This document shows positions 1-6,839 of a stretch of DNA of 64,000 bases, in pieces. The notes beneath the pieces were generated by a model, which did no database searches, was not told the origin of the DNA, and saw only the letters and a program-made list of their open reading frames with translations. Each line of letters begins with the position of its first letter. The first letter of the stretch is position 1. Made by a program: the position numbers and the translations under genes. Origin of the DNA: Peptococcaceae bacterium (GTDB lineage: Bacteria; Bacillota; Peptococcia; DRI-13; PHAD01); NCBI GenBank assembly GCA_024655825.1, contig JANLFJ010000007.1, positions 1-64,000 of the forward strand. The letters are read 5' to 3'.

Positions 1-48
1 GCTTAAAATTACGTGAAAATGGTCTAAAAAAATTTATTTCGTAAAGTC

Positions 49-744
49 ATGCTAGCCTATAAAGTTACCAAAGCTTCAGCTTCCGACATCATAGAAGGGC
101 ATGCCTTACTTGAACAGATGGAAGAAAAGCAGCCGGAAATTTTAGAGAAAGCGGAAACAATAGGGGGCGACAAAGGCTATGATGATACAAAACTGATCGA
201 GAAGTGCTGGGATCAATATCAAATCAAACCGGTGATCGACATACGCAACATGTGGAGAGACGGGGAAGAAACGCGCCTGCTTAGCGGAAGAACCAATGTA
301 GTATATAACTACAAAGGCAACGTATATTGCTACTGTCCGGAAACAGGTACTCAACGAGAAATGGCCAATGGGGGATTTGAAAAAGACCGAAACACCTTGA
401 AGAAAATATGTCCGGCCAAGCAGTACGGAATCACCTGCCAGGGTCAAGACACATGTCCGGTGGCACAAGGCCTGCGAATTCCGCTTTCGGAAGACCGAAG
501 AATCTTTACCCCGATTGATCGCGCAAGCTACAAGTGGGAAAAAGAATATGACAAACGTACCAGTGTGGAACGAGTGAACAGCCGGTTAGACGTCTCCTTT
601 GGTTTTGAACTGCACACCATCCGCGGTATGAATAAGATGAAACTAAGGTGTGGATTGGCGCTGTGTGTCATGCTGGCCATGGCTGTAGGACGAATTAAAG
701 AAAAACAAAGAGATAAAATGCGAAGTCTGGTGGCCGCAGCCTAA
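49..744 (+). pseudogene. DDE transposase, C-terminal remnant
   Basis: This open frame of 231 codons reads as the C-terminal half of a DDE transposase of the IS1182/IS4-like kind. A GDKGYDD segment (residues 40-46) carries the typical second catalytic Asp region. A late segment with YDKRTSVERVNSRLD (about 169-183) matches the Tyr-Arg-Glu region around the last catalytic Glu. A full enzyme of this type is roughly 400-500 residues, so half is missing. Upstream in the same frame there are stops at positions 4 and 25, so the loss is a real break and not the window edge alone. It is almost certainly inactive. The family name is from memory of the motifs; that it is a transposase is fairly sure. Confidence 0.75.
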
Positions 745-751
745 AAAAATA

Positions 752-810
752 TTATCCACATGTGGATAACTTTTCCGATAGAAATATCCACAACCCTAAA
801 CTGTGGATAA
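752..810. promoter_or_regulatory. Cluster of four DnaA boxes
   Basis: Two perfect DnaA boxes stand head to head as an 18-bp palindrome (TTATCCACA at 752-760 and TGTGGATAA at 761-769). A third box with one mismatch lies at 784-792 and a fourth perfect inverted one at 802-810. The rest of the gap (811-1088) is very AT-rich and holds no gene, only a promoter at its end. No dnaA or dnaN is near, so this is not shown to be oriC. It could be a DnaA titration site, an origin of a lost element, or part of the end of the broken insertion sequence just upstream. Confidence 0.7.
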
Positions 811-980
811 CAGGATAGGTGTCTTTATTTTCATGGTAAATAGAGGAAATTATTGAATCAACTTAAAAATTAGTCCTAAATTAAGGGAAGCAATTCAATT
901 TTTCTATTGAATATGCTTGATTTGCGATTAGAAAATCATAAAAATAGCTTACATCGCAAAAAGCTCATAAAAATAATATA

Positions 981-1009
981 TTGAGTAATTTCAGCAATTG
1001 TAGTACAAT
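981..1009 (+). promoter_or_regulatory. SigmaA-type promoter for the sensor/peptide pair
   Basis: TTGAGT at 981-986, a 17-bp spacer and TACAAT at 1004-1009 form a good vegetative promoter 80 bp before the membrane protein gene at 1089. It would drive that gene and the coupled peptide gene. Confidence 0.6.
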
Positions 1010-1088
1010 ATAGGCGTAATGGTAGGAATAAATAGAAAAATTGTCAAATTGTGTCGAATAATGACGAATCCAAGGAAGGCGGTAAAAG

Positions 1089-2048
1089 GTGTTGTTAGGT
1101 GCGCTCCATATTGAGACGATTCAAATAATTATAATAAATACACTTTTCGTTTCCATTCCGGAGGAGTTATACTTAGTGCTCTTTACATATATCATGATGG
1201 GCGAGTTCGACCAGTGGGAGGACGAGGACTGCAGGAAACTTTTCCAGCCCTGGGACTATTCGAGGGTCTTAATCCCAGCGGTGGCCTCGGCGGCAGTCTC
1301 CAACATATTGAGGTACACGGGGGCAAGCCCGGATATAGTTACATTAGGCACTTTTTTGGCGCTTTTTTTCGGGATTGTGGCGATGGGGGACGTTCTCAAC
1401 AACGCCGGAGCATTGAAGTGGATAGGGAAGGCCTTTTTCTTTTTAATTCTAAGTATATTATCGGCAGGTCTATGCGAGTTATTATACGTGCCCTTTTTGC
1501 TGTACGGTACGGGAGAAAGCCTGCTCACTATCAACGAGAACCTATTCTTGAATTTTATTTTTTCATTGCCGTCAAGGTTCCTGGAGTATTCCCTGCTCGT
1601 CTTTCTCCTCGCCCACAAGCGTTCCCTACTTAAAGCGCGAATAATCAAAATAATTTTTGAGAGCAAGGTGCTGGTGGCACTCACTATTGCGGCCCTTTTA
1701 ATTAATCTATATTTTTATTTGATTATGTACAATGTTGTATGCTATGAAAAAGCGCTGGTTGCTCTTCCCGCAGGCCTGCGCCTGGCCGCGGTCCTCGGCG
1801 TTTGCCTTTTCCCCGTCGTCAACCTGTCGGCCTTGGTCTGGTGCATTTACTATCTGAAAAACAGCGAGACCGCTAAAAAAAAGGCTGCCTCGGCAAGCCT
1901 CCGCAAAATCGTAGCGGAAATAAAGGCGTACCCGGAAGGCGGGAACCGCGACCACCTGGTCTGGGCCTTGAACGGCCTGGCCGTGAACCTGGAGGAGGTT
2001 GCCGACGAGCTGTACAGTGAAGAGCAACAAGGTCCAAAGAGGAGGTGA
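1089..2048 (+). CDS. Seven-helix membrane protein, AgrC-like sensor without kinase domain
   Basis: This 319-residue protein starts at GTG 1089. It has about seven hydrophobic stretches (roughly residues 10-34, 60-75, 82-102, 111-137, 150-175, 190-213 and 225-252) and a charged C-terminal tail of about 60 residues ending in a Glu/Lys-rich segment. The layout recalls the sensing half of AgrC-type GHKL histidine kinases, but no DHp or ATP-binding domain follows. Its stop codon (2046-2048) lies inside the Shine-Dalgarno of the autoinducer-peptide gene at 2055, so the two are translationally coupled. The pairing suggests a role in sensing, exporting or processing that peptide. No AgrB protease is in the window. 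Exact family not recognised. Confidence 0.6.
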   Translation: MLLGALHIETIQIIIINTLFVSIPEELYLVLFTYIMMGEFDQWEDEDCRKLFQPWDYSRVLIPAVASAAVSNILRYTGASPDIVTLGTFLALFFGIVAMGDVLNNAGALKWIGKAFFFLILSILSAGLCELLYVPFLLYGTGESLLTINENLFLNFIFSLPSRFLEYSLLVFLLAHKRSLLKARIIKIIFESKVLVALTIAALLINLYFYLIMYNVVCYEKALVALPAGLRLAAVLGVCLFPVVNLSALVWCIYYLKNSETAKKKAASASLRKIVAEIKAYPEGGNRDHLVWALNGLAVNLEEVADELYSEEQQGPKRR

Positions 2049-2054
2049 GCAACG

Positions 2055-2195
2055 TTGAAGAGACTGGACAACCTGGTGAAACGGATAGCCCCTGTGGTCT
2101 GCAGCCTGGTCATGTTAGCTGCCGTCTATGGAGGAGCAAAGGCGGCAAGCATATGGGGATTTTACCAGCCAAGAACACCCAAATGCCTGAGATAG
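2055..2195 (+). CDS. agrD: AgrD-type cyclic lactone autoinducer peptide precursor
   Basis: A 46-codon gene starts at TTG 2055 behind a strong Shine-Dalgarno (GGAGGTGA, 2041-2048). The product has a basic, amphipathic N-terminus (KRLDNLVKRIAP), a hydrophobic stretch to about residue 26, then Ala-Ala-Ser-Ile-Trp-Gly-Phe-Tyr-Gln-Pro and a polar tail ending Thr-Pro-Lys-Cys-Leu-Arg. In clostridial cyclic-lactone autoinducer precursors, a short tail with Tyr-Gln-Pro and Pro-Lys follows the core macrocycle. Ser32 here could be the ring-closing residue (lactone rather than thiolactone). Family assignment is by pattern. No AgrB-type maturation protease is visible, so processing enzymes must lie elsewhere. 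A terminator follows at 2229. Confidence 0.75.
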   Translation: MKRLDNLVKRIAPVVCSLVMLAAVYGGAKAASIWGFYQPRTPKCLR

Positions 2196-2228
2196 CCCTA
2201 AAATGACGCTCTGTTCGTACCAATTGAC

Positions 2229-2256
2229 GTGGGGGGCGAGCCCCCACTCTTTTTTT
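2229..2256 (+). terminator. Rho-independent terminator of the sensor/peptide operon
   Basis: GTGGGGG (2229-2235) pairs with CCCCCAC (2241-2247) around a short loop and is followed by TCTTTTTTT. It closes the transcript of the peptide gene. Confidence 0.8.
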
Positions 2257-2280
2257 GCGCCGGGGGACTCCAGCCGGCTG

Positions 2281-2314
2281 GCGAAAAGCGAAAGGGAGAG
2301 GATTTACCTCTCCC
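2281..2314 (-). terminator. Terminator of the XRE regulator gene
   Basis: GGGAGAGG (2294-2301) and CCTCTCCC (2307-2314) form an 8-bp stem with a 5-nt loop that contains the minus-strand stop codon. On the minus strand a T-rich run follows (TTTCGCTTTTCGC). Confidence 0.6.
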
Positions 2315-2675
2315 TGGCCTGCCGCGCGCCCGCAAGCGCTTCCGTTTTCGCTTTGATTTCCCGAGCCAGCTCCAAATAGACCACGTTGGCGGGGTCGCGC
2401 ACAAAGGCGTCGAGGTCGCCGGGCAAGTGCCTCAAATACGGGTCTTTTATCTCGGAGTGCCCCAAAAGGAAGTCTATGGAGACGCTGAAGAAATCGGCGA
2501 ACTGCTTGAGTTTCTCAAAAGGAGGCTCTCTTTTATTGATGACGTAGCCGCTGAAGGTCGGCGGCTTGATGCCCAGCACTGCCGCCACTTCTTGCTGTTC
2601 CATGCCTTTTTCTTTTACCAGCGATTTTAATCGTTCTCCCAGTGTGGTTCCCGAACCCATGTGTTCACTTCCCAT
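2304..2675 (-). CDS. XRE-family transcriptional regulator
   Basis: The 123-residue protein has an N-terminal Cro/C1-type helix-turn-helix at about residues 12-70 (LGERLKSLVKEKGM, then QQEVAAVLGIKPPTFSGYV, then LKQFADFFSVSIDFLLG). A charged C-terminal segment follows. Such proteins usually repress their own and nearby genes. It lies tail-to-tail with the peptide operon and head-to-head with the small membrane protein at 2975. Two starts are possible, at 2675 or 2660; neither has a strong Shine-Dalgarno. Two direct TATACAG repeats just upstream are candidate operators. The target genes are not known from sequence. Confidence 0.85.
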   Translation of the reverse strand: MGSEHMGSGTTLGERLKSLVKEKGMEQQEVAAVLGIKPPTFSGYVINKREPPFEKLKQFADFFSVSIDFLLGHSEIKDPYLRHLPGDLDAFVRDPANVVYLELAREIKAKTEALAGARQARER

Positions 2676-2688
2676 CGGCTTTACACTC

Positions 2689-2705
2689 TATACAGCATTA
2701 TACAG
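2689..2705. promoter_or_regulatory. Possible XRE operator: two TATACAG repeats
   Basis: TATACAG occurs at 2689-2695 and again at 2699-2705, exactly 10 bp apart, just upstream of the XRE start. Spacing of one helical turn fits two repressor subunits side by side. Inferred, not tested. Confidence 0.4.
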
Positions 2706-2790
2706 AAGCACCTCACTATATGTCAATATTCGAAATATTATGCAGTATCCATAAAGGATAAATATTTATGTAAAATGTCAACGAAACAGG

Positions 2791-2819
2791 TTGACAATAC
2801 TCAAATCGGATAGTAAAAT
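2791..2819 (+). promoter_or_regulatory. SigmaA-type promoter for the small membrane protein
   Basis: TTGACA (2791-2796), a 17-bp spacer and TAAAAT (2814-2819) give a near-consensus promoter. It points toward the gene at 2975 with a leader of about 150 nt. Confidence 0.65.
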
Positions 2820-2974
2820 ATGCTTAGATGGAAGCATATAACAAAATTACTAATAATAGGCGACATAATTCGGCACGATTCGACACGCATAACGTAATAT
2901 AATAAAATCATAACATTGCGAAACGCAGGAGCGATCGCAAAGAAAGAATTAATAAAAGAAGGAGTGCATGGAAA

Positions 2975-3196
2975 ATGGAAAACACGAAAAATGTGAAAAG
3001 AAGTTGGGTGTCCGATGTGCTGGCGATTTCGGCCATAATGGTGCTGCTGTATGTTTTATACTATTTGATAAAAGTGCTTCTGCAGGGGTTTTTGGTTTCT
3101 TGCGGGTTGAACATTCCTGTTCTGGTCTACGAACTGGCAATCGTGGCCCTGTGGTGGGTTGGAATTTACATCGCGATTAAAAAATATAAACCGTAA
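2975..3196 (+). CDS. Small two-helix membrane protein
   Basis: The product is 73 residues: a charged N-terminus, then two hydrophobic segments (about residues 12-40 and 47-67) and a Lys-Lys-Tyr-Lys tail. A Shine-Dalgarno (AGAAGGAG, 2957-2964) serves either ATG 2968 or ATG 2975. The 2975 frame is chosen because its product is a coherent membrane protein, while the 2968 frame gives Cys/Gly-rich nonsense. It lies next to a divergent XRE regulator that may control it. No family recognised. Confidence 0.6.
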   Translation: MENTKNVKRSWVSDVLAISAIMVLLYVLYYLIKVLLQGFLVSCGLNIPVLVYELAIVALWWVGIYIAIKKYKP

Positions 3197-3345
3197 ACTA
3201 TACCTGGCAGGGCTTGGCAAAGCGTCTGATTGTGAATATGGCTATGGAATCTTGTCCTGCTGCTGAATTTGGTTTTCTAAGGATGTTTAACGCTCTCTTA
3301 ATCGATATTAAAGCGGGAGAACTTACGGTAGCCAGACGCGTATAA
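3190..3345 (+). pseudogene. Possible gene fragment without a start
   Basis: A frame open from 3190 to a TAA at 3343-3345 encodes about 51 codons. It includes a protein-like stretch (MESCPAAEFGFLRMFNALLI, then DIKAGELTVARRV). There is no Shine-Dalgarno before its internal ATGs at 3238 and 3244. It overlaps the end of the preceding gene and looks like the tail of a lost gene. Nothing else is seen in this gap. Confidence 0.25.
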
Positions 3346-3346
3346 C

Positions 3347-4105
3347 TCAGCTGCTTCCTACCCACAAAGCTTTTAAGGCAATGGATAAACCTTTAAAATC
3401 CGGATGTTCTACCACGTCTTCATCCATCCCGGCTGCAACCAGGGTGTATGCGCCATCCCTGAGGGAAAAACATTCGAGGGTTTTTTCATCGGGATTGACC
3501 AGCCAATAGTGTTGCACTTGAACCCGTTGGTAAATCCGCAGTTTTTGAAGCCGATCCTTGCGGCTGCTGGAAGTAGAGAGGACTTCAACCACCAGCGCGG
3601 GCGGACCATCAATCCGGGTATCTTTCACTATCCGTTTTTGTTCCCCCGACACGTAGAACAAGTCTGGCTGAACTACGGTAATATCATGGAAGGTCACATC
3701 CAACGGCGCGCCGAAGATTTCTCCTTCGGGATCATGCTCCCAAAAATAATCTTCCAAGATCCGTTGGAGCCTGCGGGAGACTCGTTGGTGCATAACATTA
3801 GGGGAGGGCTCTCTGATCAACATGCCTTCGAGAATCTCGAAACGATAGCCTGGTTCCTCCGGCAGTTCCAGATAGTCCTGGTAAGTGAACCTCTTAGGGG
3901 GTTCGCTTTTGTATACGGCTGTTTTTTCCTTAACTGAACCAGTCAGCGCGCTGATTACATCAGCAAGTTTATAACGATATTGCTTGCTGCCCAATTCGAT
4001 GTAGGGTATTTTATTCTCTCTTGTGTATCTCCAGATTGTTTCCACGGAAAGATCCAAGGCTTCGGCCAAAACCTGGGCGGTTATCAGTTCCTTATCTCCA
4101 GCCAT
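3347..4105 (-). CDS. HTH-Uma2 fusion: DNA-binding domain plus Uma2 (DUF820) nuclease fold
   Basis: The 252-residue protein begins with an excisionase/MerR-like helix-turn-helix (about residues 7-52, with DLSVETIWRYTRENKIPY). A Uma2/DUF820 domain follows (about 75-240). Uma2 shows the PD-(D/E)XK pattern: a Pro-Asp in the VVQPDLFYV segment, then VVEVLS followed by Lys residues in RKDRLQKLRIYQ. The family is widespread and predicted to be an endonuclease, but its role is unknown. Fusion to a DNA-binding domain is unusual; most Uma2 proteins are a lone domain of about 190 residues. The start is supported by GGAGGTG before ATG 4105. Tandem 10-bp repeats lie just upstream. Confidence 0.8.
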   Translation of the reverse strand: MAGDKELITAQVLAEALDLSVETIWRYTRENKIPYIELGSKQYRYKLADVISALTGSVKEKTAVYKSEPPKRFTYQDYLELPEEPGYRFEILEGMLIREPSPNVMHQRVSRRLQRILEDYFWEHDPEGEIFGAPLDVTFHDITVVQPDLFYVSGEQKRIVKDTRIDGPPALVVEVLSTSSSRKDRLQKLRIYQRVQVQHYWLVNPDEKTLECFSLRDGAYTLVAAGMDEDVVEHPDFKGLSIALKALWVGSS

Positions 4106-4140
4106 AATAACACCTCCATGTCAATTATATGCAGAATATA

Positions 4141-4175
4141 AACCAAAAGCAACCAAAATCAACCGAAATCAACCA
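4141..4175. repeat. Tandem 10-bp repeats upstream of the HTH-Uma2 gene
   Basis: AACCAAAAGC, AACCAAAATC and AACCGAAATC sit at 4141, 4151 and 4161, followed by a partial AACCA at 4171. The exact 10-bp period puts each copy on the same face of the helix. They lie 36 bp upstream of the HTH-Uma2 start and could be its operator. Confidence 0.75.
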
Positions 4176-4243
4176 TGGCTATTGCAGATAAGCATGAAGC
4201 CTCAGAAAGTTATCTTGTATGGCTCTTGAGCGTTTTCCTTTAA

Positions 4244-4272
4244 TTGACTTGGCAATTCTTTTTTTATATAAT
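4244..4272 (+). promoter_or_regulatory. SigmaA promoter abutting the leuS T-box core
   Basis: TTGACT (4244-4249), a 17-bp spacer and TATAAT (4267-4272) make a near-perfect promoter. Its start point would fall at about 4278-4280, right at the first base of the T-box motif. The transcript would then carry no Stem I. Confidence 0.7.
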
Positions 4273-4278
4273 TCAATA

Positions 4279-4330
4279 AGGGTGGTACCGCGAGCAGACC
4301 TCTCGTCCTTTGGGGATGGGAGGATTTTTA
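4279..4330 (+). promoter_or_regulatory. T-box antiterminator/terminator of leuS, Stem I apparently missing
   Basis: AGGGTGGTACCGCG (4279-4292) is the canonical T-box sequence. It is followed by a terminator: CCTCTCGTCC (4299-4308) pairs with GGATGGGAGG (4314-4323), two G-U pairs included, then ATTTTTA. T-box leaders sense uncharged tRNA through a Stem I specifier loop of about 100 nt placed upstream. The sequence from 4176 to 4278 shows no recognisable Stem I motifs and contains a strong promoter. The sensing half therefore seems lost. Confidence 0.8.
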
Positions 4331-4364
4331 AATTCAGACCAAGAGTCAGGAAGGTGAATTAACG

Positions 4365-6839
4365 GTGCAGGAGAAGTACGACTTCAAGAAAATAGAAAAG
4401 AAATGGCAGGGAAAGTGGGCGGAGGACAGGCTGTACAAGGTCACGGAGGACCCCGGCAAAAAGAAATACTACTGCCTGGAGATGTTTCCTTACCCATCGG
4501 GCAACCTGCACATGGGCCATGTTCGCAACTATTCCATAGGCGACGTGGTGGCCCGTTTCAAGACGATGCAGGGATATAACGTGCTGCACCCGATGGGCTG
4601 GGACGCCTTCGGCCTGCCGGCGGAGAACGCCGCCATCAAGCACGGGGTGGCCCCGGCCAAGTGGACGCTGGACAACATCGACAACATGAGGCGGCAGCTT
4701 AAGTCGATGGGAATAAGTTATGACTGGGACCGGGAAGTGGCCAGCTGCCTGCCCGATTATTATAAATGGACCGAGTGGCTGTTCCTCCAGTTTTATAAAA
4801 ACGGCCTGGCATACAAGAAAAAGGCGCATGTCAACTGGTGCCCAAGCTGCGCGACGGTGCTGGCGAATGAACAGGTCATCGACGGGGCCTGCGAACGCTG
4901 CGAGACGATGGTGGAGAAAAAGGCCCTGGAGCAGTGGTTCTTCCGCATCACCGACTATGCCCAGGAACTCCTGGATTACCTGGAGAAGCTGCCCGGATGG
5001 CCGGAAAAAGTGAAGACCATGCAGGAAAACTGGATAGGCCGCAGCGAAGGGGCGGAGATTCATTTTACCGTCGAAAAGACGGGAGAGAAGATACCTGTTT
5101 TTACCACCAGGCAGGATACTGTCTTCGGGGCCACGTACCTTGTCCTGGCTCCCGAACACCCGCTGGTGGAGGCTCTCATCGCCGGCACAGAATATGAACA
5201 GGCTGTCCGGGATTTTGTCAAAAAAGTCCAGCAGATGACGGAAATAGCCCGGACATCAACGGAAACGGAAAAGGAAGGGATTTTCACCGGGTCATACGTC
5301 ATAAATCCCGTCAACCGGGAAAAAATCCCGGTCTGGGTCGCCAACTACGTATTGTACGAGTACGGGACAGGCGCCGTGATGGGCGTGCCGGCCCACGATG
5401 AAAGGGATTTCGCCTTCGCCAAGAAATACGGCCTGCCCATCCGCATTGTCATCCAGCCGTTTGACCGGCGGCTGGAACTGGAAGAGATGGAAGACGCCTA
5501 CACCGGCGAGGGGGTCATGGTCAATTCCGGCAAGTTCGACGGTCTCCCCAACGAGGAAGGGAAAAAAGAAGTCGCGCGCTGCCTGGAAAGCGCCGGCGAA
5601 GGCAGGGTGAAAATAAACTACCGCCTCAGGGATTGGCTCATTTCGCGCCAGCGGTACTGGGGAGCGCCTATTCCCATAATATACTGCGACAAGTGCGGGA
5701 CGGTTCCCGTTCCGGAAGAAGACCTTCCGGTCATGCTGCCCCTGGACGTCGAATTCAGGCCGACCGGGGAGTCGCCCCTCAACCATATTCCCGAGTTTCT
5801 CAACACGACCTGCCCGAACTGCCAGGGACCGGCCCGGCGGGAGACGGACACCATGGACACCTTTGTCTGCTCGTCCTGGTATTTCTTGCGCTTCTGCGAT
5901 CCCCAAAACGGCCAGGAGGCCTTCAGCAAGGAAAAGGTCGATTACTGGATGAATGTCGACCAGTATATCGGCGGGGTGGAACACGCCATCCTCCACCTCA
6001 TGTATGCCCGTTTCTTTGTTAAGGCGCTCAACGACTTTGGCCTGGTGAGCGTGAGAGAGCCGTTCCAGAACCTCCTGACCCAGGGCATGGTGCTGAAAGA
6101 CGGTTCCAAAATGTCCAAGTCCAGGGGCAACGTGGTCAGCCCGGAGGAGATTATCCAAAAATACGGCGCGGACACGGCCCGGCTGTTTATTCTTTTTGCC
6201 TCGCCGCCGGAACGCGACCTGGAGTGGAGCGACCAGGGGGTCGAGGGCTGTTACCGTTTCATTAATCGCGTCTGGCGCCTGGTATACAGCTACTTGAACG
6301 ACCGGGGGAAAGACGACCTGCGGACGGAAAAAGAGCTTACGCCCGCCGACAGGGAACTGCGCCGCCTGCTGCACGGGACCATAAAAAAGGTAACGGACGA
6401 CATAGAACAGAGGTTCAATTTTAATACGGCGATCAGCGCCGTCATGGAGCTGGTAAACGGCCTTTACCATTACCGGGAAAGGGAGGACCAGCACATGGGC
6501 CTGCTCAGGGAGGCCATTGACACCCTCATCGTCTTGCTGGCTCCCTTTACCCCGCATTTGAGCGAAGAATTGTGGGAACTGGCGGGATACAAGGAGAGCG
6601 TTCATCTCCAGCCCTGGCCGGCTTACAGCAAGGACGCCCTTCTCGCCGAAGAAATAGAGGTCGTTCTACAGGTTAACGGCAAGGTTCGCGACAGGCTGAC
6701 CGTGCCGGCCCGGCTTACCCCCAAGGAACTGGAGCAGGCGGTCCTGGCGATGGACAGGGCCAGGGCGGCCGTGGAGGGCAAGTCTCTGGTCAGGGTGGTA
6801 ACCGTGCCGGGCAAGCTGGTAAACATAGTGGTGAAATAA
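4365..6839 (+). CDS. leuS: Leucyl-tRNA synthetase
   Basis: This class I synthetase charges tRNA(Leu) with leucine in the cytoplasm. At 824 residues it has the usual bacterial length. The HIGH motif appears as HMGH (residues 49-52) and KMSKS at 582-586. The CP1 editing insertion spans about 220-410 and includes [12 protein letters not shown]; the usual Pro after TTR is Gln here. A CPSC...CERC pair near 158-182 fits the zinc region. Start is GTG 4365 behind AGGAAGGTGA. It follows a T-box core that points to amino-acid control, though the leader looks truncated. Confidence 0.97.

Follow-up and report, generated by a model that had tools for sequence, protein, structure and literature searches.

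A candidate kinase-less AgrC-like receptor encoded with an AgrD-type peptide and flanked by Spo0A boxes in a Peptococcaceae bacterium

We observe, near the edge of a contig of a Peptococcaceae bacterium, an AgrD-type peptide precursor gene directly behind the gene of a seven-helix membrane protein that lacks a kinase, with predicted Spo0A boxes on both sides of the cassette (Table 1). We read these genes as a sporulation-linked, agr-type cyclic-peptide cassette with a kinase-free receptor, an interpretation to which we give somewhat better than even chances. Gene content, homology, conservation, probable linkage, and Spo0A boxes were all established computationally, from the window (the whole 64,000-nucleotide stretch of contig C7 that was analyzed), the rest of its source genome (3.16 Mb in 98 contigs, 99.5% complete, 2.2% contamination), and other genomes.

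Table 1. Features of the cassette and its surroundings (positions in the window; residues where indicated)
Feature	Position	Strand	Basis or remark
3' part of a multi-copy IS1182-type element	1..966	+	Transposase ORF 49-744; right end at 966
ATAAA, right copy of the 5-bp target duplication	967..971		Left copy at the end of contig C33, beside agrB
Sigma-A-like promoter, TTGAGT-17-TACAAT	981..1009	+	Consensus match only; position conserved in MAG UBA5318
Tandem Spo0A boxes, TGTCAAA-TTG-TGTCGAA-TAA-TGACGAA	1042..1068	+	Just before the receptor gene, downstream of the sigma-A-like promoter
Kinase-less AgrC-like receptor candidate, 319 aa, seven helices	1089..2048	+	ORF, helix prediction, profile homology
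Five-helix sensor domain of the 319-aa protein	residues 15-181		
Two transmembrane helices (TM6-TM7) of the 319-aa protein	residues about 193-255		Followed by a cytosolic tail of ~60 aa
agrD, 46-aa cyclic peptide precursor	2055..2195	+	TIGR04223 match, alignment with homologs
Intrinsic terminator after agrD	2229..2255	+	Terminator prediction
XRE-family DNA-binding regulator, candidate output partner	2304..2675	-	Convergent with agrD in all four cassettes
Second tandem Spo0A boxes, TGTCGAA-TCG-TGCCGAA-TTA-TGTCGCC	2859..2885	-	Between the XRE gene and a 73-aa ORF

With 26.1 bits against a cut-off of 19, the 46-aa ORF satisfies the TIGR04223 model (quorum_AgrD), which bears out its assignment as an AgrD-type precursor in an earlier reading made from this DNA alone (the sequence-only reading). 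As expected of an AgrD, a Cys/Ser nucleophile opens a five-residue ring and a P..P recognition tail stands behind it; alignment with the three AgrDs of the homologous cassettes, whose rings are CFCFI, CFWGL, and CIWWF, predicts the ring SIWGF, closed through Ser32, and the tail YQPRTPKCLR. Since Ser replaces Cys at the ring start, the peptide is predicted to be a lactone. The start codon is TTG and its ribosome site, AGGAGGTGAG, overlaps the stop codon of the upstream receptor gene, so that translational coupling is plausible; the start is backed by alignment with the homolog in the Peptococcaceae MAG UBA5318, where the sensor stop and the agrD start overlap by 4 bp. A comparable peptide is known from Clostridium thermocellum, which makes a Ser-Phe pentalactone, confirmed by LC-MS, from the AgrD Clo1313_2818 (PMC5322536). 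Both precursors have a Ser-to-Phe five-residue lactone ring followed by Tyr, and neither agrD lies beside a recognized agr operon; for Clo1313_2818 the cognate genes, AgrB and receptor among them, were not identified (PMC5322536), whereas the present system comes with an AgrB, a receptor candidate, and a regulator.

The 319-aa membrane protein matches no Pfam or NCBIfam model, and neither these models nor kinase HMMs detect a kinase module (DHp, HATPase_c) in it, which is why it is not filed as an AgrC. Structure prediction, which the sequence-only reading had proposed, was run with AF2 on 44 aligned sequences and gave seven long helices (pLDDT 83.1, pTM 0.79), superseding a run on five sequences (pLDDT 50); the last helix reaches residue 279, beyond the membrane, and is followed by a small helical hairpin. 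A Foldseek comparison of the model with the PDB and viral models returned nothing significant, and searching the PDB with a profile of the receptor family gave no match. A nearly invariant Pro, Glu, and Glu lie within or near helices of the receptor family, and the tail has conserved residues as well. A single-sequence match to the receptor in another genome (G101, E = 0.009) was dropped, as it sits in an unrelated long protein.

With respect to the origin of this protein, profile comparison matches its five-helix (5TM) domain to a family of 150- to 200-aa proteins (A7, E = 4.7e-9; A8, E = 2.5e-13) that share an (S)IPE motif near the start and one conserved Glu, and that occurs in 153 of the 398 genomes sampled from the phylum; among the members scanned, the domain has no Pfam or NCBIfam model. 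The window receptor family is a distant member and lacks an Arg and a His that many other copies of the domain carry. Its Glu motif reads EELYLV or EEIYFV, without the Arg of EExxxR, and most relatives have PE with no second Glu. In its fused form, the domain is the N-terminus of ~450-aa proteins with two further transmembrane helices (TMs), SPOB_a, and HATPase_c, and the nearest solved structure in the PDB to their kinase module is that of Staphylococcus aureus AgrC (6e52, E = 3.6e-27). The window receptor family aligns with these fused kinases by hhalign with an E value of 4.6e-10 and a probability of 96.7, against E values of 0.35 for a reversed profile, 1e-3 at best for block-shuffled profiles, and 0.5 for AgrB. 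This profile homology to the N-terminal domain of GHKL kinases agrees with the earlier view of the seven-helix protein as an AgrC-like sensing half without its kinase. TM6-TM7 and the tail hold the same position in the chain as the corresponding part of the kinases; they show no sequence homology to the kinases' two-TM/DHp region (scores no better than reversed controls), and a common origin of these parts is not proven.

Standalone copies of the domain have AgrB within about 1.5 kb at 36 of 43 distinct places, and AgrB or a GHKL kinase within the same distance at 42 of them, figures that may be biased upward because these places are mostly the best-scoring matches. Where a kinase neighbors such a split-form protein, it has exactly two TMs before the kinase in 24 of 27 cases, a number that corresponds to TM6-TM7. 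Taken with the window protein, these cases indicate that the receptor exists in three architectures: five helices, two helices, and kinase in one chain; five helices in one protein with two helices and kinase in another; and five helices, two helices, and a tail. One example of the second type, a cluster with a LytTR regulator, five tandem 5TM proteins, a GHKL kinase, agrB, and agrD (locus L121, G003:C5, 1063-6092), is a multi-subunit split receptor. The fused (L119, L172) and split (L121) GHKL kinases share with the window protein a homologous five-helix sensor, and in the fused form also the two TMs after it; they differ in keeping the kinase in the same or a neighboring polypeptide, whereas the window cassette has none.

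In many loci a 5TM protein stands alone and a two-TM GHKL kinase is supplied by a gene of its own. This raises the possibility, which we regard as rather unlikely, that the 319-aa protein is only the ligand-binding subunit of a split receptor, with a GHKL kinase encoded at another place in the genome, and that signaling follows an ordinary phosphorelay. Such standalone proteins have five TMs and leave the other two to the kinase, whereas the window protein already has TM6-TM7; moreover, none of the four homologous cassettes has a kinase in its neighborhood, and queries of the source genome with profiles and sequence stretches turned up no fused kinase of this type. A role in peptide processing, export, or immunity, similar to that of MroQ, would suit a gene that sits between agrB and agrD in two genomes and a product with nearly invariant Pro and Glu residues in or near its helices. 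We consider this role improbable, given that full kinases carry this very domain as their N-terminal sensor, that the protein has neither a CPBP family match nor an EExxxR motif (which led us to reject a CPBP/MroQ-type maturation protease), and that the loss of the domain's common Arg and His makes a catalytic site unlikely. Under the kinase-free receptor reading, the peptide would be recognized by the 5TM domain, the same domain that serves as sensor in a large family of AgrC-like kinases, and the 319-aa protein may well work like the sensing half of AgrC without being a member of AgrC.

The receptor and agrD genes are kept together in three other genomes, which indicates that the pair is not due to chance. 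Close homologs of the 319-aa protein are rare, with one genome among the first 150 relatives and three loci in a scan of 84,980 species. Only four cassettes are known in all, and two of these come from related organisms. The gene order in Ruminiclostridium hungatei and a Eubacterium MAG is agrB, kinase-less protein, and agrD, with the XRE gene convergent; in MAG UBA5318 an orthologous agrB lies on another contig and the receptor is duplicated. The membrane protein is kinase-less at all four loci, a point that the sequence-only reading had proposed to check, and its homologs are tied to a sensor domain and a conserved small gene rather than to an unrelated transporter family. No AgrA/LytTR response regulator was seen in the listed flanks of the cassettes. 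In the Eubacterium MAG the receptor reading frame is broken (L030, 7962-8830), reflecting either a pseudogene or an assembly error.

The sequence-only reading called the pair an orphan without an AgrB protease. There is indeed no AgrB within the window, but the source genome encodes two (PF04647, 136 and 127 bits). The first, with 136 bits, lies at the very end of contig C33 (39168-39674) with no AgrD beside it on that contig, and shares 52 to 53% identity with the R. hungatei and Eubacterium MAG AgrBs and 26% with its C29 paralog; judging by sequence, it is orthologous to the AgrBs found immediately upstream of this gene pair elsewhere. The second, on contig C29, is accompanied by an AgrD of its own and by three 5TM proteins in tandem. 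In that locus (L011, 5884-10033) the 5TM genes are followed by agrB, agrD, and a gene for a GGDEF plus HD-domain protein, with no kinase adjacent, and MAG UBA5318 has a locus with the same gene order and a single 5TM protein (L054). Loci of this type possibly link sensing of the autoinducing peptide (AIP) to cyclic di-GMP.

The final 55 bases of C33 are found again at about 15 other contig ends, and window bases ~913 to 966 at 12 others; the two edges resemble the left and right ends of a single multi-copy insertion sequence (IS) with imperfect inverted ends (GAGCTAATTGCTATGT, GAGCTTTTTGCGATGT). Exact matches of the 5-bp flanks pair 7 of 13 right ends of the IS with a left end, where shifted controls give about 0.7, and C33-C7 (ATAAA) is among these pairs; by sequence alone, a single pair such as this one has a chance of roughly 10% of arising at random. 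With orthology and orientation added to the target duplication, the order agrB, IS, receptor, and agrD becomes a strong reading, and the IS probably separates agrB from the receptor-agrD pair. The two AgrBs, the orthology of one to the cassette AgrBs, and the IS join together rule out a true orphan. Across the assembly, the IS1182-type element is found at the C33 end, at window positions 1-966, and at about 25 other contig ends, mostly with 5-bp target duplications, so that its many copies explain much of the assembly's fragmentation. Although now apart from the other cassette genes, AgrB would cut the AgrD precursor and cyclize it to the five-residue lactone SIWGF.

An IS between agrB and the receptor-agrD pair, together with the frame-shifted Eubacterium copy and the unlinked agrB in MAG UBA5318, could also mean that the locus is decaying, or that the protein is a decoy, a receptor without its former kinase that does no more than bind the peptide. 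We hold this to be quite improbable, as the receptor homologs are open frames at 48 to 55% identity with conserved residues in the tail, the promoter with its Spo0A boxes is conserved in MAG UBA5318, and all four receptor copies stop at one and the same position, with no trace of a kinase behind it.

The receptor-agrD unit may still be expressed in spite of the insertion, because the IS lies just upstream of the promoter. The predicted Spo0A boxes that flank the cassette are the only two zero-mismatch tandem sets in the 64 kb, and their TGTCGAA core is an established Spo0A site (PMC3485338). The first set is kept in degenerate form upstream of the receptor gene of MAG UBA5318; the R. hungatei and Eubacterium MAG loci have no Spo0A boxes, and a Spo0E-like gene (PF09388) lies beside their XRE gene (L029, 9768-9926; L030, 9613-9807). 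Spore germination genes are present in the source genome. In promoters such as that of Bacillus subtilis abrB, where Spo0A boxes lie downstream of the transcription start, they go with repression. From this placement, Spo0A would be expected to repress the receptor-agrD unit, and the boxes would tie its expression to the sporulation switch. Further along the window, we observe a 73-aa two-helix protein without a family match over cut-off (2975-3196), with an upstream promoter-like site that overlaps the second set of boxes; a Uma2-family protein with an N-terminal HTH_17 domain (3347-4105, minus strand); and a GGGTGGTACCGCG motif before leucyl-tRNA synthetase (4279-4325) that resembles a T-box leader and has no Rfam match at the gathering threshold, Rfam giving no match anywhere in window positions 1-6000.

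In a receptor candidate without a kinase, any response must go via a separate protein. The signal would leave through TM6-TM7 and the short cytosolic tail, and the neighboring XRE regulator is the best candidate to take it, with a GHKL kinase in trans ranked second. The XRE gene is the sole non-agr neighbor common to all four cassettes, whose wider surroundings differ between the source genome, MAG UBA5318, and the R. hungatei/Eubacterium pair. In each genome, the cassette XRE is by a wide margin the best match to an XRE profile, which was itself built from two of the four. The suggestion in the sequence-only reading of an XRE partner gains support from the conserved adjacency (4/4 loci) and the best match per genome, the interaction itself being putative; of the agrB and full AgrC that the same reading proposed to look for elsewhere, agrB was found, and no fused kinase with the 5TM domain was. 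As a tentative model, we propose a kinase-independent AIP circuit in which binding of the cyclic lactone to the receptor would lead its 60-residue tail to capture or release the XRE regulator, so that peptide sensing reaches the DNA without phosphorylation, a class that would derive from the widespread five-helix sensor domain also found in fused and split form.

In the usual account of cyclic-peptide quorum sensing, AgrB and AgrD feed a phosphorelay made up of AgrC and AgrA. Like the AgrC of agrBDCA, the window receptor is a polytopic sensor encoded with AgrB and AgrD, and its 5TM domain occurs in kinases with a catalytic module that, among PDB structures, comes nearest to S. aureus AgrC. Unlike AgrC, it has a 60-aa helical tail in place of a DHp/ATPase domain, and its listed flanks hold no AgrA-type regulator. 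In Clostridioides difficile agr1, one of the agrBD loci with no local agrC (PMC8534292), AgrB and AgrD are likewise encoded with no receptor kinase next to them, whereas the window cassette retains a receptor-like sensing module. Our searches of open-access papers found no report of kinase-less or split AgrC receptors. To our knowledge, many clostridial agrBD loci lack a recognizable receptor. The five-helix domain, often a kinase-free protein beside agrB, is a candidate receptor for such loci, and the window cassette would be its extreme form, with sensing and output wholly apart from a kinase and with Spo0A boxes that link it to sporulation.
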